Assembly: GCF_022548875.1 (NCBI RefSeq)
Contig: NZ_JAKZEW010000021.1
Location: forward strand, 36,548-70,475
DNA: 33,928 nucleotides
DNA from: Glycomyces sp. L485
GTDB taxonomy: Bacteria > Actinomycetota > Actinomycetes > Mycobacteriales > Micromonosporaceae
Reading direction: 5' to 3'
Part shown: piece by piece, positions 556-33,657 of the stretch
How the letters are laid out: each line of letters opens with the position of its first letter
Position numbering within the stretch: position 1 is the first letter of the stretch
Notes under the pieces: generated by a model
Database searches by the model: none
Seen by the model: only the letters and a program-made list of their open reading frames with translations
Told to the model about the DNA's origin: nothing
Made by a program: the position numbers and the translations under genes

Positions 556-1833
556 ATGCCCGCCTGTCTATCTTCTCCCGAGCCTCCTGCGTTGAAGCAG
601 CTGGGGGCGTTGTATGCCGAGCTGGGCGCTGACCTGCTCGCCTGCCTTGAACACCTCCCCGATCACCGGTCCCGCTTCGGGCGGCGCTACCCCTTGAGCG
701 GCCTGCTGTGCGTGTGCGCGGCGGCGATGACTGGCGGGAACACCCATCCGGTGGCGATCGCCGATTGGGCCGCCACCGCTGCCGAGGTCACGCTGGAGGT
801 CCTGGGTCTGGCCTCCCGGTCGGTGACCGGGGCGTTGCGCCGCCCGGACGCGACCACTATCGCCCGCGCACTGACCGGGCTCGACGTCGCGGCGTTGGAA
901 ACGTTGGTCGCCGCTCGCGCCGCCGACGCGGCCCTGGCCGCCGGATCGATCGGATGCGCCTGTGACCCAGACGAGCCCGATCTGGCCGACTCGGCGGCCG
1001 AGCAGATCGAGCGTGACTGCTGCGCAGGAGCGCTGCCGCAGCTGTGCGTCGACGGCAAGTACCTGCGCGGCACCGGGAACAGCGCCGCCGAACAGGAGAA
1101 ACTCGTCTCCGCGTTCGAGCCTGCCCGCGGCATCACCCTCGCTCAGGTACCGGTTCCCGAGGGTACAAACGAGACCACGTGCTTCGGCCCCCTGCTCGCA
1201 CCGCTCGACCTGAGAGGGACCGTCGTCTCGGCCGACGCCGCCCACACCACCGCCGCCAACGCCCGCTGGCTGGTCGAGGACAAGCGCGCCCACTACCTCT
1301 TCGCGGTCAAAGCCGACCAGCCGACGCTCTTCGCCCAGATGAAAGCCCTGGACTGGACCGCCGTCCCCGACCGCTCCCGCCGCAGGCGAGCGGCCCACGG
1401 CCGTTGGGAACTGCGCAGCATGCGCACCATCGAACTCGACGTGGCCGTCGGATCCTTCCACCTCCCGCACGCGGCCACCGCCATCCGCATCATCCGCACC
1501 CGCACCGTCAAAGGCAAGACCACCCGCGAGACGGTCTACTACGCCACCAACCTGACCTGCCCGGACACCACTCCAGCCGCCCTGGCCTTCCACATCAGAC
1601 GGCACTGGGCGGTGGAGAATTCCAGCCACCACGTCCGCGATCGCACCTTCGCCGAAGACGCCTGCACCACCCGAAGCGTCGCAGCACCCCAGGCCCTGGC
1701 CGCCCTGCGCAACCTGATCATCGGCCTGCTCCACTGCGCCGGAGAGACGAACCTGGCCTCCGCCACCCGCCGCTACAACCGCGACGAGCCCGCGACCCTA
1801 CATCTCCTGGGAATCAACCCAAAAACGACCTAA
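556..1833 (+). CDS. ISAs1-family DDE transposase
   Basis: A 425-aa transposase that cuts and rejoins the ends of the surrounding element. The N-terminal associated domain is visible at about residues 35-70 (DHRSRFGRRYPLSGLL). The DDE catalytic core has candidate residues Asp166 in VDGKYLRGT, Asp227 in VSADAAHT and Glu354 in RRHWAVENSSHH, the order seen in ISAs1/H-repeat transposases. Length is normal for the family and there is no internal stop or frameshift. The ATG at 556 is preceded by a weak purine-rich stretch (GAGAGAG). The gene ends 3 nt before the right inverted repeat. Confidence 0.92.
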   Translation: MPACLSSPEPPALKQLGALYAELGADLLACLEHLPDHRSRFGRRYPLSGLLCVCAAAMTGGNTHPVAIADWAATAAEVTLEVLGLASRSVTGALRRPDATTIARALTGLDVAALETLVAARAADAALAAGSIGCACDPDEPDLADSAAEQIERDCCAGALPQLCVDGKYLRGTGNSAAEQEKLVSAFEPARGITLAQVPVPEGTNETTCFGPLLAPLDLRGTVVSADAAHTTAANARWLVEDKRAHYLFAVKADQPTLFAQMKALDWTAVPDRSRRRRAAHGRWELRSMRTIELDVAVGSFHLPHAATAIRIIRTRTVKGKTTRETVYYATNLTCPDTTPAALAFHIRRHWAVENSSHHVRDRTFAEDACTTRSVAAPQALAALRNLIIGLLHCAGETNLASATRRYNRDEPATLHLLGINPKTT

Positions 1834-1836
1834 AGC

Positions 1837-1856
1837 CACACACGCAGCCGCCCTGC
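1837..1856 (-). repeat. Right terminal inverted repeat of the ISAs1-family element
   Basis: Inverted partner of 410-429 with one mismatch. It is followed immediately by the second ATAGTCAG. Confidence 0.85.
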
Positions 1857-1864
1857 ATAGTCAG
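1857..1864. repeat. Target-site duplication, right copy (ATAGTCAG)
   Basis: Exact copy of 402-409 on the other side of the insertion sequence. Confidence 0.88.
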
Positions 1865-2158
1865 GTGCATGAACCCGATGTCGAGCGGATTGCCCAGCGG
1901 ACATACAGGGTCGACCTCGCGGTCCTGCCATGCCTCAGCACTGGCGATCGACTCCGGCCGCACGAATCGCAGACAACTGCCTTGGAGCACCCGGAACAGA
2001 CGGAACACGGCCGTGACGTCTTCCGGCACGCCTTCGAGCGGTTGCAGCCTCTCGCCCGCGGATACGACAACGTCGGGGGCCTGCGCTCCCTCAAGACGTC
2101 GGAGCCGGTCGACCTTGTGCTGGATCTTGCTGAGCGCATCAGCTCGTTGGTCGCTCAT
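1857..2158 (-). pseudogene. SUKH-like protein, 5' part, cut off by insertion sequence
   Basis: This is the N-terminal half of the gene completed at 104-409. The likely start is the ATG at 2156-2158 (MSDQRADALSKIQHKVD), preceded by AGGGTGG about 5 nt upstream. About 100 codons remain before the target duplication, after which the frame runs into the element and soon stops. The N-terminal sequence alone shows no motif I recognise; assignment to a SUKH-like protein comes from the 3' half. Joined across the duplicated ATAGTCAG, the two parts give a continuous 199-aa frame. Confidence 0.6.
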
Positions 2159-2326
2159 CAAACCACCCTAACCATCACAGGTGTGCCCTCGGGAACATCA
2201 CGAAGGGAGCTGTCTCGCCCGTCGTGGATGATGACCGTCCCCCAAGCCGGTGCCGTGTCGAAATCGCTTTCGGCCGCCTGCCTGACCTAGATGCGGTCGC
2301 CGATCACGGTGACCAGTAGGTCGCCT

Positions 2327-2686
2327 GCTCAGGTCGTCGCGGCCACCATCATCGGCGCGGTCGCCGACATCGACCAGTTCGACTCCCACAACGCTCTGGC
2401 CGCTTTCACCGGAGCCGCACCCAGGCAGATCGCCTCGGCAGAGAGCGAGCGTCAACGCCTCAACCGCAACGGCGACCGCCGCATGCGATACGCCCTGCAC
2501 ATCGCCACCATCGTCCAATCACGACTCAATAACGGCCCCGGCCGGACCTCCTACCTGAGGAAACGCGAAGAAGGGAAAACCCACCGAGAAGCGCTGCGAT
2601 GCCTCAAGCGCCTGCTGGTCCGAGTCATCTACCGCACCATGAAACGTGGTGCAGAACACCAGCGCTCAATCACACTAGCGGCTTGA
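2327..2686 (+). pseudogene. IS110-family transposase, C-terminal remnant
   Basis: About 120 residues match the C-terminal Transposase_20 region of IS110-family transposases: a degenerate helix-hairpin-helix lead-in, then DSHNALAAFTGAAP, a NRNGDRRMRYALH segment and a K(T)HREALRCLKRLLVRVIY tail. The N-terminal RuvC-like DEDD half is missing. Upstream sequence at 2162-2326 does not continue the homology in any frame, so this is a truncated, non-functional remnant. With the intact ISAs1 element next door, it marks the left flank as a site of repeated insertion. Confidence 0.72.
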
Positions 2687-3321: not shown

Positions 3322-3573
3322 TCAAAACGGTGCTGGAGCCGGTGGAGCACCGTGAATTTCGGCTCCGAGCCAGAGGACCTCCGGGCTCCGCTCGCACACC
3401 TCGACCGACACCACTGTGGCGTGATGGTACGAGTCCGGGGCGGGCGCCGACCAGTACAGGAGGACGATGTTGATCGCCATCGAAACCGGAATCATCGTCA
3501 CAAGCGTGTTGACGAAGACGAACGCCGCCTTGGGATCACGGATCCCGCGCAGAAAGAACCGTTTCGGAATCAC
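3322..3573 (-). CDS. Small membrane protein, hypothetical
   Basis: A possible 83-aa protein with one hydrophobic helix at about residues 17-42 (AAFVFVNTLVTMIPV onward) and a proline/alanine-rich C-terminus. The GTG at 3571-3573 is chosen for a GAGGAA stretch 7-8 nt upstream. It overlaps the end of the 2'-5' RNA ligase-like gene by 38 nt, which fits coupled translation. No family is recognised. The short length and overlap leave real doubt that it is expressed. Confidence 0.4.
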   Translation of the reverse strand: MIPKRFFLRGIRDPKAAFVFVNTLVTMIPVSMAINIVLLYWSAPAPDSYHHATVVSVEVCERSPEVLWLGAEIHGAPPAPAPF

Positions 3574-4126
3574 TCGTCCGCTTCCTCTGCCCCTTCCGTA
3601 ATTTGCTAGCCAGAGGGAATTCGGTGCGGCGATGCCAGCGGCTGCCGTCACTGACGAACAGGCTGATCGACGACACCACCGCCGAAACAGGAAGCTGCGT
3701 CTCCATGGCGGCCTCGACCTCGTCGAAGATTTCGGGTTGCTGCCCGTTGGCCACCGTCAGGTGCGGGGTCACTTCCGCGAACTGGCCACCATAGGGCGGT
3801 GCCTCGGGCCACCTGGCCGACACCACTTCGGTCAGTTCGCGGAATCGATGGTCGGGCGTCGGCACGAGATACCGTACGTCAGGGAATCGCCCGATCCTGT
3901 CGAATTCGACGCTGAACCGATTCTGCCGCGCGAACAGCGCGGTCAACTCGTCGAGCACCACCTCATCGATCCGATCGAGGTCCAAGAACGGCACCAGCAC
4001 CGTGACGTGGGCGGGCATACCCGCTGCCGCAGATGAATTGAATCGCTGCCGCCAACGATCTACGAGCAGCTCGACATCATCGACTACCGCCACCAGCGCA
4101 GTTTGACCTATCTTGTACTTCGACAT
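3536..4126 (-). CDS. 2'-5' RNA ligase/phosphodiesterase superfamily protein (two HxT motifs)
   Basis: A 196-aa cytoplasmic protein of the 2H phosphoesterase superfamily. Two catalytic motifs are present: HVTVLVPF (His40, Thr42) and HLTVANG (His122, Thr124), about 80 residues apart as in the family. Such proteins act on 2'-5' or cyclic phosphodiester bonds in RNA or nucleotides; the substrate here is unknown. The start at 4126 (MSKYKIGQ) fits the usual N-terminus, though no clear ribosome binding site is seen. The last 20 or so residues (basic, after RTEFPLA) extend past the normal domain end and overlap the next small ORF. Confidence 0.8.
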   Translation of the reverse strand: MSKYKIGQTALVAVVDDVELLVDRWRQRFNSSAAAGMPAHVTVLVPFLDLDRIDEVVLDELTALFARQNRFSVEFDRIGRFPDVRYLVPTPDHRFRELTEVVSARWPEAPPYGGQFAEVTPHLTVANGQQPEIFDEVEAAMETQLPVSAVVSSISLFVSDGSRWHRRTEFPLASKLRKGQRKRTSDSETVLSARDP

Positions 4127-4439
4127 CGCACGATTGTCTCGAAGGCTGAGCGCAACCCAGAACCCCTCCCTCGCTGACACGTGACTCGTAAACGGCTCAG
4201 GACTCACTCCGGCACCGATCACGCCGTCGCCCTCGGTTTGCTATGCGCCCCAATCCTCGGCGGGTGGTGCGACAGCGCTTGATGTCTACCGCTCCGCGGA
4301 TCTCCAATGCGGTGCGGGGACCGGGCTCCGTGTTCGGGAAGGATTTCGCCATCGTCATCAACTCCAACGGTATGCTTCCACGTCGGTGTAGCCAGTATTC
4401 AGCGCTTCGTGGCCGACTTCGACTCCGACCATGCCGCAG
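4127..4439. other. Gene-free spacer at the left edge of the DISARM module
   Basis: About 310 nt between the 2H phosphoesterase start and the hairpin after drmC. Frames in both directions are short and lack recognisable protein motifs or convincing ribosome binding sites. I see no tRNA, no direct repeat and no insertion-sequence end. It probably holds the phosphoesterase promoter and the 3' flank of the DISARM transcript. Confidence 0.4.
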
Positions 4440-20500: not shown

Positions 20501-21751
20501 GACGGACTTCAGCACGTTGTGGATGGTCCGGTTGTCGATGTGAAGCGGCTGCTGCGGGTCGGTCAGCCACGGGTGCGCGTCGGGGTCGAACAGGGAGCCG
20601 CCGTATGCGGGGATGGACAGCTCGGCGGTGTCGACGCCGCGGTGGACGGCGTTGAACAGCCCGAGCAGCCGCATCCAGGCCCGGTGGCTCTGCTCCAGGT
20701 GGGCTTCACTGCCTGCGTCGGCCATGTCCCGCAGCAGTCTGGCGGCTTCGCTCACCGAATAGGACTCGGCGTAGAGCGGGTTGTCGGCGGGCAGGAGGCG
20801 GCGTTCCTCGGCGAAGAGCAGGAACACCAGGCGCATCATGATCGTGACCGCGCCGCGGTAGACCTCGTCGGCCTCGACCAGGCGGCGGGTGCCGTCCGGG
20901 GTCGCGACGGTGATGCCGACGCCGTCGCGGGCCTTCTTGGCCTTGTGGGCTCGGCCGATCGCCTCGACCAGGAGCTCGACGGCGCGGCGGACCTGGACGC
21001 CGAGCGTCTCGGTGAGTTCCTCCTCCTTCTCGGCCGATCGTCGGAACAACGCCGGGAGCTGCTGCTCGGGTTCGTAGTCGGTGAAGCGGCGGCGGTTCAG
21101 GAGGCTGAACAGCGCGCGCAGTACGAGCTGGTCGCCGCTTTCGACGATGGTCATGGTGTCGAAGACGCCGTAGGCGCTCGCGCCGTCGGCGGGGGCGTAG
21201 ACGAGGGCGAGGAAGCGGCCGTCGGTGGCGATGCCCAGTTCGGTCTTGTTCGCCGCGCACAGCCGCAGCAGGCGGTCGATCGGCGCGGCCGTCCAGGTCT
21301 CGCCGCTGATCCGTTTGGCGGGATGGTGGCGGGGCGGGACGATCAGGCCGACCATGCGGGGGTCGTCGCCGTCGTGCAGGGTGAAGTCGGGACTGACGGT
21401 GGTGTCGTGCTGGCCGATGTGGACCGGTTCGATGCCGTCGACCGCCTGGCCGGGCTCGGCCGGGAAGTGCAGCCCGGTCCCCCAGCCGAGGAAGTCGCCG
21501 AGGAGGGCCTCGATCCAGATCCGGCAGCGTTTCGGGTCGCCGGTGTCCTCGGCCCAGTCGCCGTGGGCCGCCCGCAGCTCGTCACGTCGGTCCTTCGGGA
21601 CGGCGTCGAGGTCAGGCCAGGTGTCCGTGAGCACCGGCAGCGACAGCCACGGGCCGTCGGTCTCGATGAGTTCGATCCAGTCCTGGTGGCTGCGGGTGCG
21701 GTCCGAGCCGGTCCTGCGGCGCTTGAACCTGGCGTTCTTCGGGCGGCTCAA
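17510..21751 (-). CDS. drmMI: DISARM N6-adenine DNA methyltransferase DrmMI
   Basis: A 1,413-aa Eco57I-type gamma-class adenine methylase. SAM-binding motif I is DIAMGSAAF (Asp653-Phe661); catalytic motif IV is GNPPF (Asn934-Phe937). A long N-terminal region and a C-terminal TaqI-like specificity domain flank them. In class 1 DISARM this enzyme methylates host DNA so that it is spared. The start is TTG at 21751, overlapping the drmD stop as TTGA, with GGGAG 5 nt upstream. The segment coding for residues of about 930-1250 is strikingly AT-rich compared with the rest. PglX of BREX is a related alternative, but no PglZ or BREX core gene is present. Confidence 0.87.
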   Translation of the reverse strand: MSRPKNARFKRRRTGSDRTRSHQDWIELIETDGPWLSLPVLTDTWPDLDAVPKDRRDELRAAHGDWAEDTGDPKRCRIWIEALLGDFLGWGTGLHFPAEPGQAVDGIEPVHIGQHDTTVSPDFTLHDGDDPRMVGLIVPPRHHPAKRISGETWTAAPIDRLLRLCAANKTELGIATDGRFLALVYAPADGASAYGVFDTMTIVESGDQLVLRALFSLLNRRRFTDYEPEQQLPALFRRSAEKEEELTETLGVQVRRAVELLVEAIGRAHKAKKARDGVGITVATPDGTRRLVEADEVYRGAVTIMMRLVFLLFAEERRLLPADNPLYAESYSVSEAARLLRDMADAGSEAHLEQSHRAWMRLLGLFNAVHRGVDTAELSIPAYGGSLFDPDAHPWLTDPQQPLHIDNRTIHNVLKSVTTVWMSAGRQRSPRSLNGLQLADPKRRPKGEYRTVNFDRLGVEQIGYVYEGLLAWEGRWSTEVVVGLIGTESKEAEVPLRELEAMRERVGDDVEALASALHERFEKDDKTGIGTAKAIAKLLAPMDGEQRERAERDLLAVTDNDPELTAKLLPFYGIIRADLRGQATVVLPETLYMTESALRGNTGAHYTPRKLADEVVKGALEPLVYEPGPLQTADEDAWKPKGSKDILSLKVADIAMGSAAFLVAACRFLAEHLLEAWRIEGDPRGSVTEDSDEGGSAEDPNLIEARRLIIEHCLYGADINPAAVEMAKLSLWLVSMDKDRPFTFLDDRLVCGDSLLGITTVEQLEYMHLNPAEGRKLHEGTVLDFTARIREIRAEAAEKRRAIAEIGDSSTADQERKRELLTRARELTEEASRYADLLTGAGLAASVKRSGSKDPNRRDDIARDEDRRKENLWLIAAELGNDQSEFGREKLERQAAQWLRIDQPKGAFDRDPIHWPLVFPEVFEAGGFDAIVGNPPFLGGKKITGNVGTAYREYLVECVGRGVRGHADLVAYFLLQSADLLSSTGHAGLIGTNTLAQGDTREVGLDRIVAEGATIRSAVKSERWPSRSAVLEYCIVWTSKSKVGAEGLRLLDGQHVTGIGSALDRISRVRGDVNRLVVNQDQSFIGSYVLGMGFTLDPIDAQALIEKDQKNTGILFPYLNGQDLNQRPDGSASRWVINFHDWEEEQARGYPECYAQVEREVKSERLAKADSAVAEFPWWRYWRSRDNLYETISGLDRVIVLTRVSKVVMPMMVPTGQVFSERIVVFASEDTGFLAYLSSAPHYWWAITRSSTLETRTNYTPSDVFETLPRPEISEELRRVGDRLDSERRELMLARQAGLTDAYNMVHDRANADADIANLRELHRLIDEEVCRCYGWDDLIPELAHDHYDTRQGVRYTIAPGPRQEILDRLLEENQRRYAIEVEQGLHSKKTPKKAAGKTAKAKPESPGQGSLF
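18000..18960 (-). other. AT-rich segment of drmMI covering the target-recognition region
   Basis: Hand count of 18001-18660 gives 342 G/C in 660 nt (52%), with a trough of 75 in 180 (42%) at 18361-18540. A line at 20101-20160 in the same gene has 45 in 60. The low-GC part begins close to the catalytic NPPF codons and covers the predicted DNA-specificity domain. The reading frame stays open throughout. Confidence 0.75.
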
Positions 21752-24700
21752 CGGTTCTCCCTTTCCGGTACGACGCAGACGATCGCGAGCGGGCTGCGGT
21801 GGCCGACCGGGTCGGCGTAGCGGGCGGTGACCGCTTCGAGCGCGCGGTCGCGTTCGGCGTCGATCTGCTCCAGGCGCTCGGCCCAGTGCCCCTCGTCGCG
21901 GCGGGCCTGCTGCAGCTCCAGTTCGGCCAGGCCGGCCAGTTCATGCTCGTCGGTCTGGCGGCCCTGGATGGCCTGTTCGAGGGAGGCGCGGAACTGCTCG
22001 TACTGGTCGCGCACGCGCTCTTGGTCCTCGGCGACCCGGTTGTCCAGGAGCCGGTGCAGGAAGTCCTCGCGGGTGGCGGTGCGCCAGTCGAGGGCGGCGC
22101 GCAGGCCGCGGTCGGCCTCGGGCCAGCGCTCGGCGAGCCGGAGCTTCGCGCCCGGCCCGGCCTCGACGCCGCCGTCGAGCGCGTCGTCGAGGATCTTCGC
22201 GGTGCGCCCGAGGTTCTCCAGGCGACGGAAGCGGCCGGTCCGGGAGTCGAGCCAGCCGCCGACGGCCATGATCTCCTGGTGCAGCTGCGTCGACTCGCCA
22301 CCGGTGAGCGTGTACTTGGCGTAGGCGGCGACGAACACGTCCTCCAGCTCGTCAGGGCCGACCACGGCGGTCACCCGCTTGAGGTCGACCCGGTCGGTGT
22401 CGGCGGCGGCCCGCAGCAGCCGCGCCGACATGTCGACCAGCGGGTGCGACAGGTGGGCGAGCACCACATCGTCGCGCCCGGAGGCGACGAGCGGATCGAA
22501 GCTCACCGGGCGCTGATACTTCTCCTCGCCTTCGGGCACGAACGGGGTCAGCAGGCCGTCGGTGGCGCGCACCCATTCGCCGGTCATGACCGGCACCTCG
22601 AACTCCGACGGCGGGTCGCCCTGAGCGGTCGGACGCGGCTTCAGCGGCATCTGGTGGGCCAGGTCGAGGGCGGTGTCGACGACCCGGCGGATCCGCTCGG
22701 GGTGGAGATGGAGTTCGGCGACGCTGTCGTCGTAGTGCTTGCCGAGGCGTTCGACCTGTTCGGACACGTCGGTCGTAGCCGCGACCTCGCCGGACTTGCG
22801 GCCCTTGGCGGTGCCGCGTTCGGCCAGCGCGTCGACATCGGGTACGGAGCTGTCGCCGGCGAGGCGTTTCTGGAGGGCTTCGGCGAGGACCGGGTTGACC
22901 GAGCCGAGGTCGGTCTGCATCCGGCTGACCTTCGCGGCGACGCGGGCGAGGAAGTCGATCTCGCCTTTGAACGCCGAGTCGCCCGCGGTCTGGGAGGGCA
23001 CGAAGTTGTAGATCTCGGGGCTGCGGCGCTGGCCGTACCGGTCGATGCGCCCGGCGCGCTGTTCGAGCTTGTTGGGGTTGAACGGGATGTCGTAGTTGAC
23101 CAGGCGGTTGCAGTGGTTCTGGAGGTCGATGCCCTCACCGGCGGCGTCGGTGGCCAGGAGGATGCGCAGCGGGTGTCCGGAGGGGTCGGCCTGGAAGGCC
23201 AGGCGGATCTCTTCGCGTTCGTCGATGTCCATGCCGCCGTGCAGGAGTGCCACCCGGTCGCCGCCGAATCCCTGGGAGTCGAGCAGGTCGTGCAGCCAGT
23301 GCAGGGTGTCGCGGTATTCGGTGAAGACGACGACCCGGTCGTTCCCCCATCGGCCGTCGGCTTTGCAGGTCGCTCGGAGGAACTCGAGGAGCCTGGCGGC
23401 CTTGGTGTCGGGGACGGCGAGGTGTTTGAGGGCCCAGTCGTTGATCTGGCCGAGCAGGGCCTGTTCGGCGGGGTCGAGGCGCTCCTGCTGGCCCGCCGAG
23501 CGGCGGAGGCCGTCCTCTTCGAGTTCGTACAGCTCTTCGTCGTCGAGTACGGCCGACTCGTCCCAGAACTCGTCGTAGTAGCCGGGGACCGCGTCACTGA
23601 CCGCCGCCGCTTCCTGCGGGAGCGAGCCCGCATAGGTGGCGTAGGTGTTGGCGAACGCCTGCGGGCTGGACAGCAGTCGCTTCTTGAGCAGCAGCGTGAT
23701 CAGGTCGGCGGCGGCGCGTCCTCGGCGGCCCTTGGCTCTTCGGGAGCGGCGGGCCTGGGTGAACTCGCTGAAGAGGCGGTGGACTTCCAGTTCGTCGTCG
23801 CCGTATTCCAGTTGCAGGTCTCGCACCTGGCGAGAGGGGAACTCGGGTTCGCCGTCGGAGCCGACGATCGAGGACTTGAGGCGCCTGATCACCACCTCCT
23901 GCTGGGCGGCCGGGGACGGCTCCACACCGCGAGCGAAGCGGGCCGGGTCGAGGATCTCCAGCAGCGCCGTGAACGACTCGGGGTAGCCGTTGTGCGGGGT
24001 GGCCGACAGGAACAGCCGGTGAGTGAAGTGCTTGGACAACTCGCGCATCGTCTTGGTCTGCTGCGAGTCGACCGCGTAGCGCTGCTTGGGGGCGGCCGGG
24101 GCGATGTGGTGCGCCTCGTCGAGGATGAGCAGGTCGAAGAACGGCTTGGTGTCCTCGGCTGCGCCGCGCAGCAGCTCGCCGAAGAGCAACCGCTCGGCTT
24201 TGGGTCCGCGCAGCCACGGCAGACTCACGATGGTGTGGCGGTAGATGTCGAAGGGGTTGGCGCCGTTGCCGCGCTCGCGGCGCAGATCCGTGTAGGTCTG
24301 GGCGTTGACGATGGTGAACCGCAGGCCGAACAGGCGGAACATCTCGTCTTCCCACTTGGTGGTCAGGCCGGCAGGGCAGACGATCATGACCCGCTTGGCG
24401 CGGTGGCGCAGGATCAGCTCGCTGGCGACCAGCCCGGCCTCTACGGTCTTGCCCAGGCCGACGTCGTCGGCGAGCAGCTGGTTCACGCGAGGGGCCCGCA
24501 GCGAACGCCACACCGGTTCGAGCTGGTAGTGCTTGATGTCGGCGCCGGAGCGGAACGGAGCCTGGAGGGATCGGGTGTCGGCGCTGGTGAGCGCCGACCA
24601 GCGCATCGCGTCGAGGAACGCGGCCAGTTGGCCGGGACGGTCGAAGCCGTCGCGGGTGACCTCCGGCAGTCCGGAGGCGGGCAGGAGCCGACGGCCCGGT

Positions 24701-24882
24701 TCGAGCTCCCACACCACTCGGAGCGTCTCGCCGAAGGCGTCGTCGGCGATGCTGTTGAGCTCGACGAGCGTGTCGTTGCCGGAGGCGTCGACGTCGGCGA
24801 CGATCCAGCGGGAGTCGCGCACCTCCACTCGGTCGCCGACCGACGGGACCTCGGAGCGGTCGGCGGTCGAGCTTGCGGGCAT
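21748..24882 (-). CDS. drmD: DISARM SNF2-like helicase DrmD
   Basis: A 1,044-aa SNF2/Rad54-type DNA translocase. Motifs in order: ADDVGLGKT (Lys145), DEAHH (255-259), LSATPHNG (292-299), VVFTEYRDTLHW, LLATDAAGEGIDLQNHCNRL and QRAGRIDRYGQ (608-618). The C-terminal 400 residues include coiled-coil-like helices. DrmD is the hallmark of class 1 DISARM. The ATG at 24880-24882 has GGGAGG 5 nt upstream. It overlaps drmMI by 4 nt. The 127-nt gap before it holds two GC-rich hairpins (for example AACCGC/GCGGTT), so drmD may have its own promoter or an attenuated link to the upstream trio. Confidence 0.92.
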   Translation of the reverse strand: MPASSTADRSEVPSVGDRVEVRDSRWIVADVDASGNDTLVELNSIADDAFGETLRVVWELEPGRRLLPASGLPEVTRDGFDRPGQLAAFLDAMRWSALTSADTRSLQAPFRSGADIKHYQLEPVWRSLRAPRVNQLLADDVGLGKTVEAGLVASELILRHRAKRVMIVCPAGLTTKWEDEMFRLFGLRFTIVNAQTYTDLRRERGNGANPFDIYRHTIVSLPWLRGPKAERLLFGELLRGAAEDTKPFFDLLILDEAHHIAPAAPKQRYAVDSQQTKTMRELSKHFTHRLFLSATPHNGYPESFTALLEILDPARFARGVEPSPAAQQEVVIRRLKSSIVGSDGEPEFPSRQVRDLQLEYGDDELEVHRLFSEFTQARRSRRAKGRRGRAAADLITLLLKKRLLSSPQAFANTYATYAGSLPQEAAAVSDAVPGYYDEFWDESAVLDDEELYELEEDGLRRSAGQQERLDPAEQALLGQINDWALKHLAVPDTKAARLLEFLRATCKADGRWGNDRVVVFTEYRDTLHWLHDLLDSQGFGGDRVALLHGGMDIDEREEIRLAFQADPSGHPLRILLATDAAGEGIDLQNHCNRLVNYDIPFNPNKLEQRAGRIDRYGQRRSPEIYNFVPSQTAGDSAFKGEIDFLARVAAKVSRMQTDLGSVNPVLAEALQKRLAGDSSVPDVDALAERGTAKGRKSGEVAATTDVSEQVERLGKHYDDSVAELHLHPERIRRVVDTALDLAHQMPLKPRPTAQGDPPSEFEVPVMTGEWVRATDGLLTPFVPEGEEKYQRPVSFDPLVASGRDDVVLAHLSHPLVDMSARLLRAAADTDRVDLKRVTAVVGPDELEDVFVAAYAKYTLTGGESTQLHQEIMAVGGWLDSRTGRFRRLENLGRTAKILDDALDGGVEAGPGAKLRLAERWPEADRGLRAALDWRTATREDFLHRLLDNRVAEDQERVRDQYEQFRASLEQAIQGRQTDEHELAGLAELELQQARRDEGHWAERLEQIDAERDRALEAVTARYADPVGHRSPLAIVCVVPERENR

Positions 24883-25009: not shown

Positions 25010-26224
25010 TCAGGTGAGTTCTTCGAGCTGACCGGCCAGGTGATGGTTCCCGGCGTTGGCCGCGAGTGCGGCGAGGGAGTCCAGGCTCATCGGCTCGAAT
25101 TCGAGCTGGCGGGCGAACTGGTGGAGGCGGGCCTCTACCAGGTCCGGTTCGGGGTTGCGGGCCGCGCCCAGATAGCCGGCGGCGCGGTCGAGCAGGGCCC
25201 TGGTCCGGGCGTGAGCCGAGGCGCACCAGAGTTGGAACACGGTGTTCCTGGAGACTTTGTACTGCCCGATCTGCGAAATCGTCAGGCCGCCTTCACGGGT
25301 GAACTCCCGCTCGGGGAGGAGTACCCGCCAGGTCCGATCGACCTGCCGCACGTCCGGCCGCTGCCCCAGATCCTTGAACTCGGCCCACGCGGCGATGTTC
25401 TGCTCGTCGCCGCCCCCGAGGCCCTCGGTTTCCAGTTGCTCCATGTGGGCGCGGACGTACGGGTGCTGTTCGAAGACCTCGCTCAACTCCGGGTCATGGC
25501 CGGCGCTCGCCTGGGTGTAGGCCAGGTAGCGAGCCGGCCCGGCGGAGGGTTCGGCGCGGACCAGGTACACCGGCAGGTACGCGGGACGGTCCGAGCCGAG
25601 CGGGCGGAGGTCCTCGATGCCCTCGGGCAGGTTGAAGCGGTCACGGTCGCGGCGGTTCATCAGATCCTGCAGCGCGTTCGCCGCTCTGCCTATGGGGACG
25701 CCGATTCGCCGGAAGCGCACCCCGCTCTTCTGGCCGAGCAGGCGCACCGCGTCGAATTCACCGAGGATCGTAACGGTCTTGGAGTCGTAGTAAATGCGCG
25801 TCAGAGGCTGGGAGCCGAGGGCCTCGAAGTAGAGCACCCGTCGGTCGGCCTTGATCACCTCGAAGCGTTTGCCGTTCTCGACCGAGCGCCTTCCGAGCGC
25901 GGTCAGACTGTAGTGTCCGCCGGATTCGACCAGATGCCCGGTCCGGGCGAGGAAGCGCAGCACCCGGTCCACGAGGGTCTCATCGAGTGAGAGGAAGAGC
26001 GCGAGTTCTCTGACGGTGTCGAAGCCGGCGTCGGCGATCGCCGCTTCGAGGAAGCGGTCGAGGAGCTCGTACGGGCGGCCCTCGGTGACGGTCGCTTCGA
26101 CCTCGATGCGCCACAATGGAAGCAAGCAGGCGACGATGCGGGTCGGCATCAGTCCCATCTCGTGTCTGGCGTTGTCGACGACCCGCTCGCGCGGATAGGG
26201 GAATAGCTGGTCAGGTCGGGACAC
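25010..26224 (-). CDS. Winged-helix protein linked to the kinase-helicase operon
   Basis: A 404-aa protein. Residues of about 52-117 form a winged helix-turn-helix (RELALFLSLDETLVDRVLRF, then TGHLVES and HYSLTALGRRSV), so it probably binds DNA or docks on a partner. The middle part is beta-rich, and the C-terminal 130 residues are helical. The GTG at 26222-26224 is chosen because GGAAGG lies 8 nt upstream and it begins 4 nt after the helicase stop; a GTG at 26248 has no such site. It is third in the kinase-helicase operon and directly precedes drmD. I do not recognise the family. Confidence 0.75.
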   Translation of the reverse strand: MSRPDQLFPYPRERVVDNARHEMGLMPTRIVACLLPLWRIEVEATVTEGRPYELLDRFLEAAIADAGFDTVRELALFLSLDETLVDRVLRFLARTGHLVESGGHYSLTALGRRSVENGKRFEVIKADRRVLYFEALGSQPLTRIYYDSKTVTILGEFDAVRLLGQKSGVRFRRIGVPIGRAANALQDLMNRRDRDRFNLPEGIEDLRPLGSDRPAYLPVYLVRAEPSAGPARYLAYTQASAGHDPELSEVFEQHPYVRAHMEQLETEGLGGGDEQNIAAWAEFKDLGQRPDVRQVDRTWRVLLPEREFTREGGLTISQIGQYKVSRNTVFQLWCASAHARTRALLDRAAGYLGAARNPEPDLVEARLHQFARQLEFEPMSLDSLAALAANAGNHHLAGQLEELT

Positions 26225-26228
26225 GCGC

Positions 26229-29195
26229 TCACCCTTCCTTTTCGACACGGTCGAGCAAGGCCTGGATCTCCTCGAAGGACCGGACCTCGCCGCGGGCGGT
26301 CAGGTGCGCCTCCAGGTCTGCCATCAGGCTGCGGAAGGACTCGTCGCTGCTCGCGGTCAGCGTGGAGCGGTCGCCGACCATCACCAGTCGGAATCGGGCG
26401 CGCGTGAACGCGACATTGAGGCGTCGCAGCTCCGAGAGGAACCCGACCTTTCCCGCGCGGTTGCTCCTGGTGAATCCGTAGAGCACGACGTCGCGTTCGC
26501 CGCCTTGAAACGAGTCGACGGTTCCGGCGTTCAGCTCGATGGTCCCGGGGTCGGCGATGCGTCGGCGCAGGAGGCTTCTGACCAGTTGGAGCTGGGCGCG
26601 GTAGGGCACGATGAGGCACCAGTCCCCTTCCCCGGGAAGGTGGTGGTAGTGCGCGGCGAGCTGTGCGAGCAGTTCGGCCTCGGCACGGTTCACGTACCCG
26701 GGCAGGGACCACCGCTCGGCGGTCGACCCGCCGCGCTCCATGCGCCGCCGTGGAGGAAGTCCGGACGTGTCGATGAGGGTCATCGGCGTGTGCATGAGCG
26801 AGTCACGGTGGCGGCCCTTATGGACGGTTCGCAGTGTTGAGCCGTAGAACTGGTCCGACACGAAATCGGCGATGGTGGCCGGCATGCGCCGCTGCTCGGC
26901 GAGCGCCACCTGGTGGCTCTGGGGCAGTCGTGCGCTCAGGATCTCCAGGGCGCTCTTCGCGAGCATCTCGCGGACCTGCGAGTCGTCGACGGCGGCGCCC
27001 CATTGCCGCACTTCGCTGTCGAGGAACGGGGGCAATTGCTGCGCGTCGCCGACCAGCACGCCGCGTCGGGCCCGGGTGAGCGGGACCAAGACGTCGTTGA
27101 TACCGATCTGGCCGGCTTCGTCGATGACCGCGAGGTCGAAATCGATGCCCGACAGTTCGGGGCGGGACGCCGATCCGATGCACGTGGCGGCGATGACGTC
27201 GGCGTACCTGACGAACTCATTGCGAAGCTGATCCGTGGCCGAGGCGACGGCAGTGTGCCAGCGGCCGAGCAGGTTCCCGCGCTTCATGAGCAGCGGAAGC
27301 TCCCGCGCGATTCGGGCGTGCTCGCGTTCGAGGGCGGCGAGCGCACCGCTGGGGTCGTCTGCGGCGTCCCTCAGGCTCGGCGCGTGGACGGTCAGCAGGC
27401 CGCGGAGTGCCGTGCCGAGGTTGTCGGCGGCCTCGGAGGCGGCAGTGAACGCCGACTCGGCCCCGCTTCTCGACGCTCGGCTCTGCTCCCGCGACCGTTT
27501 CACGGCGGGATCGGACTCGACCTCTCGATCGCGTTCGGCGGTCGTCGCGCGGTGTTCCTCGGCCAGGACTGCCAACTCGGCTTCGATGCGCCTCCGGCGG
27601 CTCCCAGCCTGGTCCGCGAAACGGGCCAGCACCGCGTGTACGAATGCGAAGACCAGTCCCAGCAGAGGGATCGCGGTGCGCGCCCGCGCACCGGCCGACA
27701 AGGCGCGACGGCGCCGCTCGACGCTCCTCCGGCGTTCAAGGCCCGCCGATATCCGTTCGAGGCTTCGGGCAAGGTCGGCGAGGCGGGACTCGAAAGGCTC
27801 GGCAGCGGCCGACGTCGCCCGTTCGAGATCCAGTTCGGCGCCGGCGAGCTCGTCCGCTGCCCTGGCGTATCGACCGATCCGGGTGCCAAGCTCCCGGTGC
27901 CAGCTTTCGGCGGTGGCCAGGTCGCCGTACTGTCCCATGGATCGCGCGGTGGCGGCCTGGATCCGTTCGCGCAGTTCGCTCACGCGTTCTTCGAGCAGGT
28001 ACGGGAGTCCTTCGGGGGTGACCGAGTCGCGGTAGCCGACTCGGAGGACCTCCAGGTCGCGCGGCAGGCCGCCGAGCACATTGTCGACCGCGCGGTTCGA
28101 ATGCGAGGAGATCAGCACCTTCTGCTGGAAGTCGACGACCGCGGCGCGGGCCATCTCACTGATCGTGCGGGTCTTGCCGGTGCCGGGCGGACCGTGGACG
28201 AGCAGTAGGTCCTCCACGGTCATGGCTCTCTCGAACGCCCGGCGCTGTTCGGGATTGAGCGGTCTCCGCGGTTCGGCGTGGGTCTCGGGGATCTTGCGCA
28301 CCTTGTTCTCGACGACGGCGTCGAGCAGGTGCGGGTTCCGCGACTCGCGGTCGCGCAGCAGCGCGACCGCTTCGCGTTCGCTGCGGAAGACGGTGTCATT
28401 GGCGGCTTCGCGGAGTGCGCCCACGGCCGGGAGCGCGTCCCAGTCGATCGGCCGGTCGAACTTGACCGTGGCGGTCTTTCCGGCGAGCCGGGTGACTCGG
28501 CCGCGCACTTCGCCGTCGCCGACGATGTCGACGAACATCCCTTCGCCGAGCTGGTGGTCGTCCGCCAATTCGAACAGGTAGACCGAGCGTTTGCCGTGGC
28601 GCTCTTCGCCGGTGGAGCGCTTGGCCGTGTAGTCGCTCGCGCCGGAGGACTCGACTTGACGGCGACGGATCCTTTCGGCCGCATCGATCATGGAGTCCAA
28701 GTCGTCGAGGAAGTCGGTCTGCCTGTCGGTCAGCGGCCTCCTGCCGCGCTCGGCGGCCTGGCTGTCCTGCAGGCGTCGCCAAGCGGACATGACCTCCTCG
28801 GTGAACGACTGCGCGCCGGGTGGAATATCGGCGAAGGTGCGAACCACCCTCCATGCGCGGGTTTTCACGATGAGGCACGACTCCGCCAGCTGCCGGTGAT
28901 CCCGGTCGTCGAGCGGGCCGACGAAGCCGATCCGGTAGGCGTCGCGCCGGGAAGTGAGGTAGAGCCGGATCTTGAATTCCGGGGTGTAGGCGTACCAGTT
29001 CGGGCTGTCGCCTTCTTTCTGGAGAGGGACGGTGACCGGGATTCCGGCCGTCCGGGCGAGCTCGCTCAGCCGGTCTTGGATCTGTCCGGGGTCGCGTGGA
29101 ACGTTGGGATTCTCGCGGTGCGCCGCGCGGAGTCTGGCCTCAAGGTTCTTGTTCGGGACCATGATGATCGGCCCGTTCAGGAGGACAGAGTTCAC
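26229..29195 (-). CDS. SF1 helicase (Upf1/DNA2 type) with coiled-coil insert
   Basis: A 988-aa superfamily 1B helicase. Motifs: VHGPPGTGKTRTISE (Lys341), VIDEAGQ (Asp692, Glu693), VGDAQQLPP, EQRRMP, VDSFQGGERDVV (893-904) and LNVAFTRAR. Between motifs I and II there are about 200 residues of coiled coil, interrupted by an uncharged hydrophobic stretch at 509-526 (IPLLGLVFAFVHAVLARF) that could be a membrane helix. The N-terminal 300 residues are a separate region of unknown fold. The start is GTG at 29195 with GGAG 5 nt upstream, 9 nt after the kinase stop. Probably a nucleic-acid motor of a defence operon. Confidence 0.85.
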   Translation of the reverse strand: MNSVLLNGPIIMVPNKNLEARLRAAHRENPNVPRDPGQIQDRLSELARTAGIPVTVPLQKEGDSPNWYAYTPEFKIRLYLTSRRDAYRIGFVGPLDDRDHRQLAESCLIVKTRAWRVVRTFADIPPGAQSFTEEVMSAWRRLQDSQAAERGRRPLTDRQTDFLDDLDSMIDAAERIRRRQVESSGASDYTAKRSTGEERHGKRSVYLFELADDHQLGEGMFVDIVGDGEVRGRVTRLAGKTATVKFDRPIDWDALPAVGALREAANDTVFRSEREAVALLRDRESRNPHLLDAVVENKVRKIPETHAEPRRPLNPEQRRAFERAMTVEDLLLVHGPPGTGKTRTISEMARAAVVDFQQKVLISSHSNRAVDNVLGGLPRDLEVLRVGYRDSVTPEGLPYLLEERVSELRERIQAATARSMGQYGDLATAESWHRELGTRIGRYARAADELAGAELDLERATSAAAEPFESRLADLARSLERISAGLERRRSVERRRRALSAGARARTAIPLLGLVFAFVHAVLARFADQAGSRRRRIEAELAVLAEEHRATTAERDREVESDPAVKRSREQSRASRSGAESAFTAASEAADNLGTALRGLLTVHAPSLRDAADDPSGALAALEREHARIARELPLLMKRGNLLGRWHTAVASATDQLRNEFVRYADVIAATCIGSASRPELSGIDFDLAVIDEAGQIGINDVLVPLTRARRGVLVGDAQQLPPFLDSEVRQWGAAVDDSQVREMLAKSALEILSARLPQSHQVALAEQRRMPATIADFVSDQFYGSTLRTVHKGRHRDSLMHTPMTLIDTSGLPPRRRMERGGSTAERWSLPGYVNRAEAELLAQLAAHYHHLPGEGDWCLIVPYRAQLQLVRSLLRRRIADPGTIELNAGTVDSFQGGERDVVLYGFTRSNRAGKVGFLSELRRLNVAFTRARFRLVMVGDRSTLTASSDESFRSLMADLEAHLTARGEVRSFEEIQALLDRVEKEG

Positions 29196-29204
29196 ATCGT
29201 CTCC

Positions 29205-30740
29205 TCATTTGAGAGCGTCGGTGGCGGATTGGAGGGCATCGGCGAGCGTCTGGATGGGCGGACGTTCATCGGGCTCGTGCGACAGCGCCGACGTAAGAGC
29301 GGCTTCGAGTACGGCCGGGCAGTCCGGGTTCCGGGTTCGAAGCGGCGGCGCGGGCATCCGGGGCGGCGGGTGCCCGGCAGTGAGGTGGTAGGCGATCGCG
29401 GCGATCTGGTACACGTCAGTCGCGGGCCCGGGCGGGGTCGGCCCGCGCCGCCGCTGTTCGGGCGCGGTGTAGATGCAGGAGGTCTCCCCGTGCCGTGGTG
29501 GGCGTCCGGCGTTGCCGAGATCGCGGAGCACCAACGTCTGCGCATCAGCCATCACGATGCCATCGAGCGCCAGGTCACGGTGGCTCGTGCGGGACCGGTG
29601 CAGGGCTGACAGGGTCCGGCACAGTCCGGAGAGGCCCAGGTACGACCCGGCCGCCGCCCAAGGATCGAGCGGCCGCCCGTCATCGGTCGCAAGGACGCCG
29701 AGCGTCTCACAGGGGACGCGTTCACGCCCGGCCGCGGGCCAGATCAGCACCGAAGTGACCGTGTCGCCGGTGGAATCGAGCTGATCGACGGCGGGCAGCC
29801 CTCGAACCGAGCCGATTGCGTCCAGCAACCGGTGTTCGCGGCGCAGCGCCTCCCGGGTGGCGTCCGCGACGGGGCCCGGATGCGGACAACGGACCTGGCG
29901 TAGCCAGACGAATCGGCCACCGCGGCCACCGCTCGCATCGCGGCGCATAGCAACAGCGCGACGAAGGACGGCGGTGCCGTCCGGTGAACGCCGTTCGTCG
30001 ACGAGGAGGTCATAGAGCAGGAAGCGGCCGCGGCCGAGAGCGACCTCGGTTCCGGGCGCCCACGTGTCATGGCGAGGTGGCGCGGGTACCGGCTCGGCCA
30101 GGACGAATCCTAGGTCTTCCGAGCCCGGTTCGAGGTGGTCTACCGATTGGCCGATCGGTCCAGCGCCGCGCAGACGCCGGAAGCCCTCCGCCTGTTCAGA
30201 GCGCATCGACTCGACCATGTCGATGAGGCCGGCCTGCCCGACTCCCAGGTTCTCGAGGCGATCCAATGTCTCACTCGTCGTGTCGGCGAGGTGCCGGAAG
30301 ACCAGGTCCAATCGCTCGCGCAGATCGTCGGCCGCGCTTTCGAGCGCGGTATCGAAGGCGTCGAACCGATCGAGCAACCGGACCAGTCCGGCTTGCACCT
30401 GGAGCGCGTTCGCATCTCCACGCTCGAGCAGTTCGGTCAAGTCCGAGACCAAGGCCGCCTCGGCGGCAGAGCGCAGCTCCTCCTTCGGCTTACCGCGAAT
30501 GCGCTCGGCGCATCGCTGCGTGAGAGCCGTCAGTTGACCGGCGCCGATCCCGCCCGCTATGCCGCCGACCGCGGTCACGACCGCCCCTCCGCCGGCTATG
30601 GCGACAACGGCGGGGGCGAGCGCGGCCGATGCGAGCAACGTCAGCACGGCGGTGGCACTCCCCCGTCGCAGCAGCGACGGGGACTGCTTGACCGCCCGGT
30701 CGACCCCCTCGCGGGCCGACTCGGCCGAATCCGCATCCAT
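29205..30740 (-). CDS. Degenerate protein kinase with hydrophobic N-terminal segment
   Basis: A 511-aa protein. Residues 28-70 are hydrophobic and glycine/alanine-rich (TLLASAALAPAVVAIAGGG onward) and may insert in membrane. Residues of about 90-195 are helical. The kinase-like domain spans about 230-505: SHRDL (Asp389), RDLG in place of DFG (Asp407), YTAPEQ (activation-segment end) and TDVYQIA. The beta-3 lysine appears to be Arg281 and the metal-binding Asn after HRD is Gly394, so activity is doubtful. The start at 30740 is set by GGAAGGA 7 nt upstream. It heads the operon with the helicase and winged-helix genes. Confidence 0.78.
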   Translation of the reverse strand: MDADSAESAREGVDRAVKQSPSLLRRGSATAVLTLLASAALAPAVVAIAGGGAVVTAVGGIAGGIGAGQLTALTQRCAERIRGKPKEELRSAAEAALVSDLTELLERGDANALQVQAGLVRLLDRFDAFDTALESAADDLRERLDLVFRHLADTTSETLDRLENLGVGQAGLIDMVESMRSEQAEGFRRLRGAGPIGQSVDHLEPGSEDLGFVLAEPVPAPPRHDTWAPGTEVALGRGRFLLYDLLVDERRSPDGTAVLRRAVAMRRDASGGRGGRFVWLRQVRCPHPGPVADATREALRREHRLLDAIGSVRGLPAVDQLDSTGDTVTSVLIWPAAGRERVPCETLGVLATDDGRPLDPWAAAGSYLGLSGLCRTLSALHRSRTSHRDLALDGIVMADAQTLVLRDLGNAGRPPRHGETSCIYTAPEQRRRGPTPPGPATDVYQIAAIAYHLTAGHPPPRMPAPPLRTRNPDCPAVLEAALTSALSHEPDERPPIQTLADALQSATDALK

Positions 30741-31392: not shown

Positions 31393-33252
31393 CTAGGCCC
31401 CCGCCGGCGGGCCCGGCCAGATCTCGCAGACGAGGTCCGTGAGCCGCTGCGACCGTTTCTCGATGTCGGCGTCGGTCCACGCGTGGGGGTGGTCGACGAT
31501 CAGGTCCTTGGAGAGCGCGAGGAGGCTGTACTTGTCGAGCAGGCTTCGCTTGCCGAGACCGGACTCGCCGCCCAGCTTCATCCCCGCGGCTTCGTCGTCG
31601 GTCCAGGGCCGGTTGGACAGTGAGCCGTTGAGGCTCTTGGCCACGAGCGTGAGGTTGCCGAGCGTGTGTACTCGGTAGTCGCGTTCGGCGGACTCCTCAG
31701 GCGTCAACCGCGGCTCGGGGTTCCAGTAGATCTGCCACGTCTGCGGCATGACGTGCTCGATCTCCAAGCTGTCCGGCAGGGAGACGTCTTCATGGAAACG
31801 TGTTCGCAGCTTCCGTTCGATGGCGGAGAGCACTATGCGAAGCCGGTACTGGGCGACGTTGCCGTACAGCTTGAGCGACGGCAGCTGCGACTTCAGCACG
31901 GTGTCAGTCGGCCAGATCCGAGCGTCGGCGCTCTGTGCGGCCAGGAATTCGCGGACCGCGTCGCCCGCTTCATCGACCGGCACCTGGTCGAGCATCTTCA
32001 GGATCGAGACCATCGTCTTGTTGACGTCTTTCATGGTCATCCGCAGCAGTGTGCGTCGGATGATCCAGCTCTCCAGGGAGCGGAGCGCGGTCTCGATCTG
32101 GGGCTCGGGGACTCGGTGGTTGTCCGAGAGGAGCCAGAGTAGGAGCGGGCTGGTCGCGGCCAGCCCCATGGTCTCGATGACGCGGTGGTAGAAGGCGCCT
32201 TGGACTGAGTGCTCGGGGAGGTTCGCCAGCGCCCGGTAGGTGTCGGCGTCCTTGCGGAACTCGCTGAGGAGGCGTTCGGCGTGTTCGGGCTGGGACATGT
32301 GGGGTTTGGCGTATTCGGTGAAGATTCTGAAGACCTGCTCGGTCTTGACCTCGTCGTTGCGGCGCATGGTGAGCCAGTACTGGACGAAGATGTCGATGCG
32401 GGAGCGCTGCTGGCGGCCCTGGGTGATCTCGGTTCGCCACCAGTCGTCGTCGAAGTCGACCCAGTGTGTCTCCGACCAGCGTTCGACGTCGGCGCTGGCG
32501 CGCTCTCCCTGCTGGAACACCCAGTTCTTGATGAGGTCGGCTTTGAGCAGCGGCGTGCCCCGGTCGTTGAGCGTCTCGAAGATCAGCTGCGAGTCGTCGT
32601 GGCCGGCGAGGTTGATCGCCACGATGTAGAGGCGGTCGCGCAGTGTCGCGGACAGCGCCTGGGCCCGCTGCTCCTCCGTGCCCGGCGGCATGTCGCCGTC
32701 GTCGTCCGCTTCCCCGGTCAGCCAGGTCCGGGCTTCATTGGTGAAGAACTCGTGGGCGGTCGTGATGCGGTGTTCGCCCGCCCAGTCCGGATCGGGGTCG
32801 AGCGCCTGCGCGAAGGCGTCCCGGTCGTGTTTGGACGGCCAGAGTTTGAACCGCTCCGGCCTGCCGCGGAACGCCGACGAACGGTTGACGATCAACTCTT
32901 CGAGGTCTTCGGCGAGCAGTTCGTGGCCTCGTTCGGCGAGCACTGCGCGGACCGCGCCGATGATCAGTTGTAGGGTGGTGGTGCGCTGCTGCCCGTCGAT
33001 GATCTTGTGCCGGGTGACGTCGCCGACCCTCGGCGGCCTGGATTCGTAGACGACGGCGCCGAGGAAGTGGTGCGGGACGGCGGGCTCTTCGCCGTCTGCG
33101 GCGACATGGCTCTCTGCCACGCGGAGGATGTCGGCCCATAGTGGAGCCCACTGGTCCTCCTCGTTCCAGACATAGGGTCGCTGGAACGGCGGGACCTCGT
33201 AGTGCATCTTTCCGTCGAACAGTTGGCGGGGGCTGAGCGCGTCTGCTTTCAA
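31393..33252 (-). CDS. DUF262-DUF1524 protein (GmrSD/SspE-like putative nuclease)
   Basis: A 619-aa protein with both halves of the GmrSD-type architecture. N-terminal DUF262 has PPFQRPYVW (21-29) and IIDGQQRTTT (85-94), used in the family for NTP binding and hydrolysis. C-terminal DUF1524 has an HNH-like site: IEHVMPQTW (His500) and LGNLTLVAKSLN (Asn533). Relatives cut modified phage DNA (GmrSD) or nick DNA in phosphorothioate-linked defence (SspE); the target here is unknown. The TTG at 33252 is preferred: it gives the family-typical LKADALSPRQLF start, with GAAGGGA upstream. An ATG at 33318 has no binding site. Confidence 0.85.
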   Translation of the reverse strand: MKADALSPRQLFDGKMHYEVPPFQRPYVWNEEDQWAPLWADILRVAESHVAADGEEPAVPHHFLGAVVYESRPPRVGDVTRHKIIDGQQRTTTLQLIIGAVRAVLAERGHELLAEDLEELIVNRSSAFRGRPERFKLWPSKHDRDAFAQALDPDPDWAGEHRITTAHEFFTNEARTWLTGEADDDGDMPPGTEEQRAQALSATLRDRLYIVAINLAGHDDSQLIFETLNDRGTPLLKADLIKNWVFQQGERASADVERWSETHWVDFDDDWWRTEITQGRQQRSRIDIFVQYWLTMRRNDEVKTEQVFRIFTEYAKPHMSQPEHAERLLSEFRKDADTYRALANLPEHSVQGAFYHRVIETMGLAATSPLLLWLLSDNHRVPEPQIETALRSLESWIIRRTLLRMTMKDVNKTMVSILKMLDQVPVDEAGDAVREFLAAQSADARIWPTDTVLKSQLPSLKLYGNVAQYRLRIVLSAIERKLRTRFHEDVSLPDSLEIEHVMPQTWQIYWNPEPRLTPEESAERDYRVHTLGNLTLVAKSLNGSLSNRPWTDDEAAGMKLGGESGLGKRSLLDKYSLLALSKDLIVDHPHAWTDADIEKRSQRLTDLVCEIWPGPPAGA

Positions 33253-33657
33253 TTGGCGTCCCTTCGATTCCGGACGGTTTGGGCAAGGTGGGGGTGGAGC
33301 CGGTTTGCGTGTCGCCATCGGAGGTGAGTTCGCCGCAAGCGTTGAGGATTCGCTTCCGAGAGACGCTCATGGTACCCACCGGTGGGATTGGACTCAGCGA
33401 GCCGCAGAGACAACCCGGACGAACCGCTCATCGTCGATCCTCATACGACGGCGATCCTCTCCCCGGAGCTTTCTGACGCAGAAATTGCCGAGCCGCGTCA
33501 ACCAAATCGGTGCACAGGTGAAGTCAGACGGCGGATTCCTTGCAGGCGGAAGAAAGCCGCGAACTCGCTGAATCGGAGAGCTTCACCGGCGCAGGGACTC
33601 TGGTAGACAGTCGGAAATCTGGCACAGTCCGACACGGGTGCGACACGCGGGATGATC
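33253..33657. other. Upstream region of the DUF262 gene, no gene seen
   Basis: About 400 nt without a credible reading frame in either direction; frames are short and rich in arginine and serine. It contains the palindrome at 33375-33386. It should hold the promoter of the DUF262 gene, but I could not pick hexamers with confidence. Confidence 0.4.
33375..33386. promoter_or_regulatory. 12-bp perfect palindrome upstream of the DUF262 gene
   Basis: CCCACCGGTGGG, a perfect dyad without spacer, 123 nt before the TTG start (57 nt before the alternative ATG). It could be an operator; it could also be chance in GC-rich DNA. Confidence 0.25.

Follow-up and report, generated by a model that had tools for sequence, protein, structure and literature searches.

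Three closely spaced genes lie between a DUF262-DUF1524 nuclease gene and the DISARM gene drmD in Glycomyces sp. L485, and the locus raises the question of whether they form a defence module of their own and how such a module might act. The DNA analyzed here, hereafter the window, comprises 33,928 nucleotides, and its relevant features are listed in Table 1. The original prediction, made from the sequence, had placed all of these genes on one strand, and this location was confirmed, as all were found on the minus strand. The three reading frames of the trio are separated by only 9 nt (kinase-helicase) and 4 nt (helicase-winged helix, with the GTG start at 26224). These gaps and a gene order that is kept in 29 loci uphold the view that the trio is one unit.

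Table 1. Features of the trio and its immediate neighbours in the window.
Feature	Coordinates	Strand	Remarks
Gene 1: candidate effector joined to pseudokinase, 511 aa	29205..30740	-	ATG start; longest ORF starts TTG at 30791
Gene 1 N-terminal helical region, residues 1-200, candidate membrane effector	30141..30740	-	hydrophobic stretch 27-65 and long helix 128-192
Gene 1 pseudokinase domain, residues 230-511	29208..30053	-	Pkinase 4.1e-5, under Pfam cut-off; HRDLAL, DLG
Gene 2: Upf1/IGHMBP2-type SF1 helicase, MkoA-like, 988 aa	26229..29195	-	AAA_11 1.6e-39, AAA_12 3.2e-35, MkoA 8.7e-100
Gene 3: winged-helix protein, MkoB N-terminus-like	25010..26248	-	404 aa from GTG at 26224; longest ORF 412 aa
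drmD of class 1 DISARM, neighbour outside trio	21748..24882	-	127 nt downstream of trio; NF038317 1247 bits, over cut-off
GmrSD-type (DUF262-DUF1524) protein, upstream neighbour outside trio	31393..33318	-	GmrSD_N 9.3e-33, GmrSD_C 1.2e-18

The proteins themselves were largely as predicted. The HRDLAL/DLG loop and the hydropathy agree with a degenerate kinase with a hydrophobic N-terminus, and the AAA_11 and AAA_12 matches agree with a Upf1/DNA2-type SF1 helicase. The winged helix assigned to the third protein is likewise in agreement with its predicted model and with weak fold matches to MarR/DtxR-type winged helices; the list of fold matches was full of winged helices and tells little about the C-terminus.

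The statement that no named system contains this set did not hold, as the Mokosh profiles of PADLOC matched all three proteins; an unnamed system without relatives is ruled out by these matches. The window helicase matched MkoA at 8.7e-100 (positions 429-1099 of 1112), the window kinase matched the kinase part of MkoA at 1.6e-9, and the winged-helix protein matched MkoB at 8.5e-14 (model positions 5-251 of 610). MkoB was also matched by all 14 trio winged-helix proteins of alignment A1, and an hhalign profile comparison of trio winged-helix proteins with four MkoB-type proteins gave 96.5% over 115 columns. Alone, the MkoA and MkoB profiles are unspecific, each of them also matching in 8 of 14 control genomes. 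Among 296 class genomes, the top MkoA scores belonged to seven fused proteins (L100-L106), followed by the 12 trio genomes.

In Mokosh type I, the kinase and helicase are fused in one MkoA protein. The trio resembles this type in its MkoA-family SF1 helicase, in the kinase fold of the preceding gene product and in the MkoB-type N-terminal domain of the following one, but the two are not identical. In particular, the trio kinase and helicase are encoded by separate genes in all 29 trio loci, the intact Ser/Thr kinase motifs are absent and the catalytic loop is degenerate, and the N-terminal domain of the trio kinase is exchanged between loci. The fused MkoA protein P0008, with kinase and helicase in one chain, keeps VAVK, HRDIKPQN and DFG as judged by eye. 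A PLD domain in the C-terminus of the winged-helix protein was considered and rejected, since neither Pfam nor PADLOC revealed one; none was found in the window protein (P0001) at E up to 1, in the same scan that detected PLDc_2 in the MkoB-type proteins P0007 and P0009 of fused systems.

Other known systems were more distant. MkoC of Mokosh type II is a single protein; the window helicase matched it at 3e-34, but the trio consists of three genes and PLD was not found. The kinase weakly matched mad6 (1.9e-7) and the helicase mad8 (6.7e-7) of the MADS system, and among the best 25 matches per protein of six neighbouring window proteins, generic methylase similarity was the only further resemblance to MADS. 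Inactive kinases occur in other actinobacterial conflict systems: as far as the consulted portion of PMC7159879 extends, the actinobacterial vWA-MoxR ternary conflict systems include catalytically disrupted kinases among varied effectors, but they are built on vWA and MoxR, and no helicase-winged-helix trio is described in that portion. Among the literature matches listed, which did not cover bioRxiv as such, we recognized no description of this trio.

Whether the three genes co-occur in other genomes was proposed as a check, and they do. The trio of kinase-like protein, SF1 helicase and winged-helix protein was found in 29 actinomycete loci including the window, and since the order is identical in all of them, the trio is more than a chance arrangement. 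These loci comprise the window, 14 strong loci, 13 loci from a pattern-limited scan and one from a Streptomyces search. With the winged-helix protein as the query, matches were found in 18 of 394 class genomes; the 20 matches were the window, the 14 strong loci (one of them in two pieces, L015 and L021, merged as L065), a fragment (L016), two loci beside fused Mokosh (L017 and L018) and one taken without its flanking sequence (L019). When the species-genome collection was scanned with three peptide patterns only, 28 loci were obtained, of which 13 were new trios. The other 15 were 10 repeats, one locus cut by a contig end (L076), one with helicase and winged helix in which the kinase was not found (L087), and three in which only winged-helix pieces were found (L078, L097 and L098). 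Of the 28 loci measured (L065 omitted), 24 had no more than 50 nt between the kinase stop and the helicase start, and all 28 had no more than 50 nt between the helicase stop and the winged-helix start. The distribution is patchy, with the trio present in 3 of 246 genomes of a genus taken as Streptomyces (one a fragment) and in 12 of 35 genomes of a family taken as the Frankia family. One Frankia genome carries two different trios (L056 and L057).

We found the kinase to be degenerate throughout the family. The catalytic loop of the window kinase, HRDLAL, lacks the Lys but keeps the HRD Asp, and DLG is also kept. None of the 29 trio kinases has the Lys, and 26 of them also lack the HRD Asp, which is retained in the window and two further Glycomyces kinases; because the HRD Asp is kept, activity of the window kinase is possible. 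An alignment of 34 sequences (24 of 30 proteins retrieved by means of the kinase domain, together with 10 loci) lacked the Lys in 34 and the HRD Asp in 30, while the Asp of DLG was kept in 34 of 34 by eye. When the 29 trio kinases were combined with 29 proteins, the loop was located in 56 of 58 sequences (all except P0024 and P0025), with the Lys in none and the HRD Asp in five. As read from these alignments, the pseudokinase is a shared scaffold with an eroded catalytic loop.

An unexpected difference between loci is at the N-terminus of this scaffold. The original prediction described a single degenerate kinase with a hydrophobic N-terminus, and the interchangeability of N-terminal domains across loci went unseen. 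Judged from sequence comparison, these domains are exchanged: the N-terminus is Mrr-like nuclease in 17 of the 29 loci, hydrophobic helical in three (the window and two other Glycomyces), PNP-type in two, short and possibly amyloid in two, and TIR, SEFIR, HNH-like, DUF4145 and unassigned in one each. The Pfam matches were TIR_2 (6.5e-31), PNP_UDP_1 (5.3e-32 and 1.6e-29), SEFIR (2.6e-11), DUF4145 (9.1e-7) and HNH_2 (8e-4). The Mrr-type motif G-D-x-G-I-D followed by W-Q-x-K-Y was present in the 17 loci, and Mrr_cat matched 6 of 12 N-terminal domains scanned (best 5.4e-4); the HNH assignment and, where a cut-off is shown, the Mrr-like assignments lie under the Pfam cut-offs. Compared with solved structures, the Mrr-like domain gave a best E of 0.055, to an unrelated structure. 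The N-terminus of L082 looked like a nuclease by eye but found no Pfam support, and it is left unassigned. A second sample, 30 proteins retrieved by a search with the kinase domain, which overlaps the trio set and is without genomic context, contained 10 hydrophobic, 8 PNP, 7 SEFIR, 3 short, 1 Mrr-like and 1 XRE-HTH N-termini, with SEFIR, PNP and HTH assigned by Pfam and the rest by hydropathy or eye.

The N-terminus of the window kinase reaches a hydropathy maximum of 2.29 over 19 residues, and its model consists of helices with pLDDT values of 59-90 for 10-residue blocks. No Pfam effector family was found in it, a homologue search with this domain returned only itself among 7,993 candidates, so that it was not found on another scaffold, and a fold search with the whole kinase model gave a list taken up by kinases and barely sampled the N-terminal domain. 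From the hydropathy and this middling model, we regard it as a candidate membrane effector. The two short N-termini resemble amyloid motifs by eye; their strings were absent from the portion of published amyloid peptides compared. Internal evidence comes from one locus only, L075, in which the gene just upstream, encoding a BTAD domain (2.5e-19), ends in a motif matching the kinase N-terminus over 12 residues, 7 of them identical. Only 3 of 10,000 shuffles were as good, but among 7,079 ORF C-termini one unrelated ORF equals the score, so this pair is suggestive at most of an amyloid link.

In a helicase tree of 36 rows, a single clade with support of 100/99 united the helicases from 26 trios with that of L087, apart from the fused MkoA proteins sampled; L065 and L079 were not entered and L076 was dropped as short. 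Six fused MkoA and three other helicases lay outside; these were what passed the filter, from 7 fused and 11 other loci. The fused MkoA proteins did not form one group, and the branch joining trio and fused forms was weak (74/66). On the 27-row helicase tree, the nine N-terminal classes required 8 changes, the minimum possible for nine classes, and the TIR member grouped with four Mrr-like members at 100/100.

These results bear on the alternative that the trio is a divergent Mokosh type I system in which kinase and helicase are merely split, which acts on phage RNA and in which the winged-helix protein stands in for MkoB. The Mokosh matches of all three proteins are consistent with it, and NERD and PLD domains are listed for Mokosh type I in the consulted part of PMC10952713, so that other nuclease domains occur there. 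As far as the excerpts seen extend, Mokosh is listed among systems of unknown mechanism in PMC12926258 and degrades viral transcripts according to PMC11291487. However, the loss of the HRD Asp from most trio kinases (26 of 29), the PLD domain that is found in P0007 and P0009 but not in the trio, the TIR, SEFIR and PNP N-termini, and the separate helicase clade argue against this alternative, which we consider unlikely.

That the trio serves class 1 DISARM as an accessory in certain lineages is less likely still. In the window, the trio lies directly before drmD on the same strand (at the distance given in Table 1). It also directly precedes drmD in three Frankia loci (L059, L062 and L064), and in Glycomyces artemisiae (L074) a broken drmD follows it after 1.4 kb, so that trios associated with drmD fall into two distinct regions of the helicase tree. 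Additionally, drmD was over the cut-off in 22 of 296 class genomes, namely 6 of 12 trio genomes versus 16 of 284 others, a comparison that assumes both draws to be the same and is confounded by Frankia kinship. In contrast, drmD adjoins the trio in only 5 of the 28 loci tested (L133 left out) and was not found beside it in the other 23, within 0.6 to 13 kb of downstream sequence (1.1 kb or less in L054 and L084). The trio therefore does not need DISARM, and an obligate DISARM component is rejected; the constant presence with drm genes that marks a class 1 DISARM component was not observed. This answers in the affirmative the question of whether the trio recurs without DISARM and supports the earlier view of the trio as separate from core DISARM. 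At a greater distance from the trio, DrmD-like SNF2 helicases are encoded in L053 and L095.

The DISARM set of the window (4482-24882) is of class 1, with drmD, drmMI, drmA, drmB and, at the position of drmC, a PLD protein. An interruption of about 6.7 kb separates drmMI from drmA; six ORFs were scanned in it, of which five had no Pfam match at 0.01 and one matched HTH_31 and DUF5753. Just after the PLD gene, a 2'-5' RNA ligase superfamily protein (2.7e-24) is encoded at 3536-4222, and the left end of the window (556-2686) carries transposase genes, or pieces of them, of the DDE and IS110 types.

To look for other defence genes nearby, 20 of the larger flanking ORFs from 13 loci were scanned; 6 matched PADLOC at 1e-20 and 14 did not. 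Two of the six encode SNF2 helicases that resemble DrmD only in part, and one encodes a general kinase. A type IIG enzyme lies beside one trio, and type I-E CRISPR genes cas3 and cas8e follow the trio of L055 after about 4 kb (L055:10733-15250). The 14 unmatched ORFs and the MarR/DtxR-like fold of the winged helix would fit an operon for regulation or stress signalling that plays no part in defence, but we judge this highly improbable given the patchy distribution, the Mokosh homology and the N-terminal domains of TIR, SEFIR, PNP and nuclease type, which are common immune effectors.

That the trio is a defence module, as first proposed from its location, is thus probably right in view of its Mokosh homology, recurrence and patchy distribution. 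On balance, we favour the reading that it is a three-gene Mokosh-related immune module, beside DISARM and not part of it, in which a sensor triggers an exchangeable effector borne by the pseudokinase and leads to abortive infection. In such a module, the SF1 helicase and its winged-helix partner would sense invader nucleic acid or an infection intermediate, and the pseudokinase would be a non-catalytic adaptor that docks to this sensor and carries the exchangeable N-terminal effector. Activation would cluster or free the effector. In the window, the hydrophobic helical domain may permeabilise the membrane, in an arrangement that recalls, by analogy only, the helical domain joined to a pseudokinase in MLKL. 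Judging from the domain families, relatives may use an NAD- or nucleoside-directed effector (TIR, SEFIR or PNP) or a nuclease effector (Mrr-like or HNH-like), and in others a short motif may recruit a separate effector. The outcome would be abortive infection.

More tentatively, the trio may represent a helicase-gated pseudokinase immune platform, in which one conserved sensor, the SF1 helicase with the winged-helix protein, acts by way of a catalytically dead kinase scaffold on effectors that can be exchanged, including an MLKL-like executioner (helical domain plus pseudokinase) in the window and, in other actinomycetes, a separate effector recruited by an amyloid motif outside any NLR. Bacterial NLR amyloid signalosomes, as treated in the part of PMC7889193 consulted, offer an analogy only, as short motifs link sensor and effector there but in the trio a helicase would take the place of the NLR as sensor. 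The motif pair of L075 bears on a question raised in that part of the same paper, namely whether there is amyloid signalling beyond the NLR pathways. A Mokosh-related branch with a constant helicase and swapped effectors would separate sensing from killing, and a constant sensor with exchanged TIR, SEFIR, PNP, nuclease-like and membrane-type domains would make the sensor testable by effector swaps. If true, this reading would add a helicase-tied pseudokinase adaptor to bacterial immunity.
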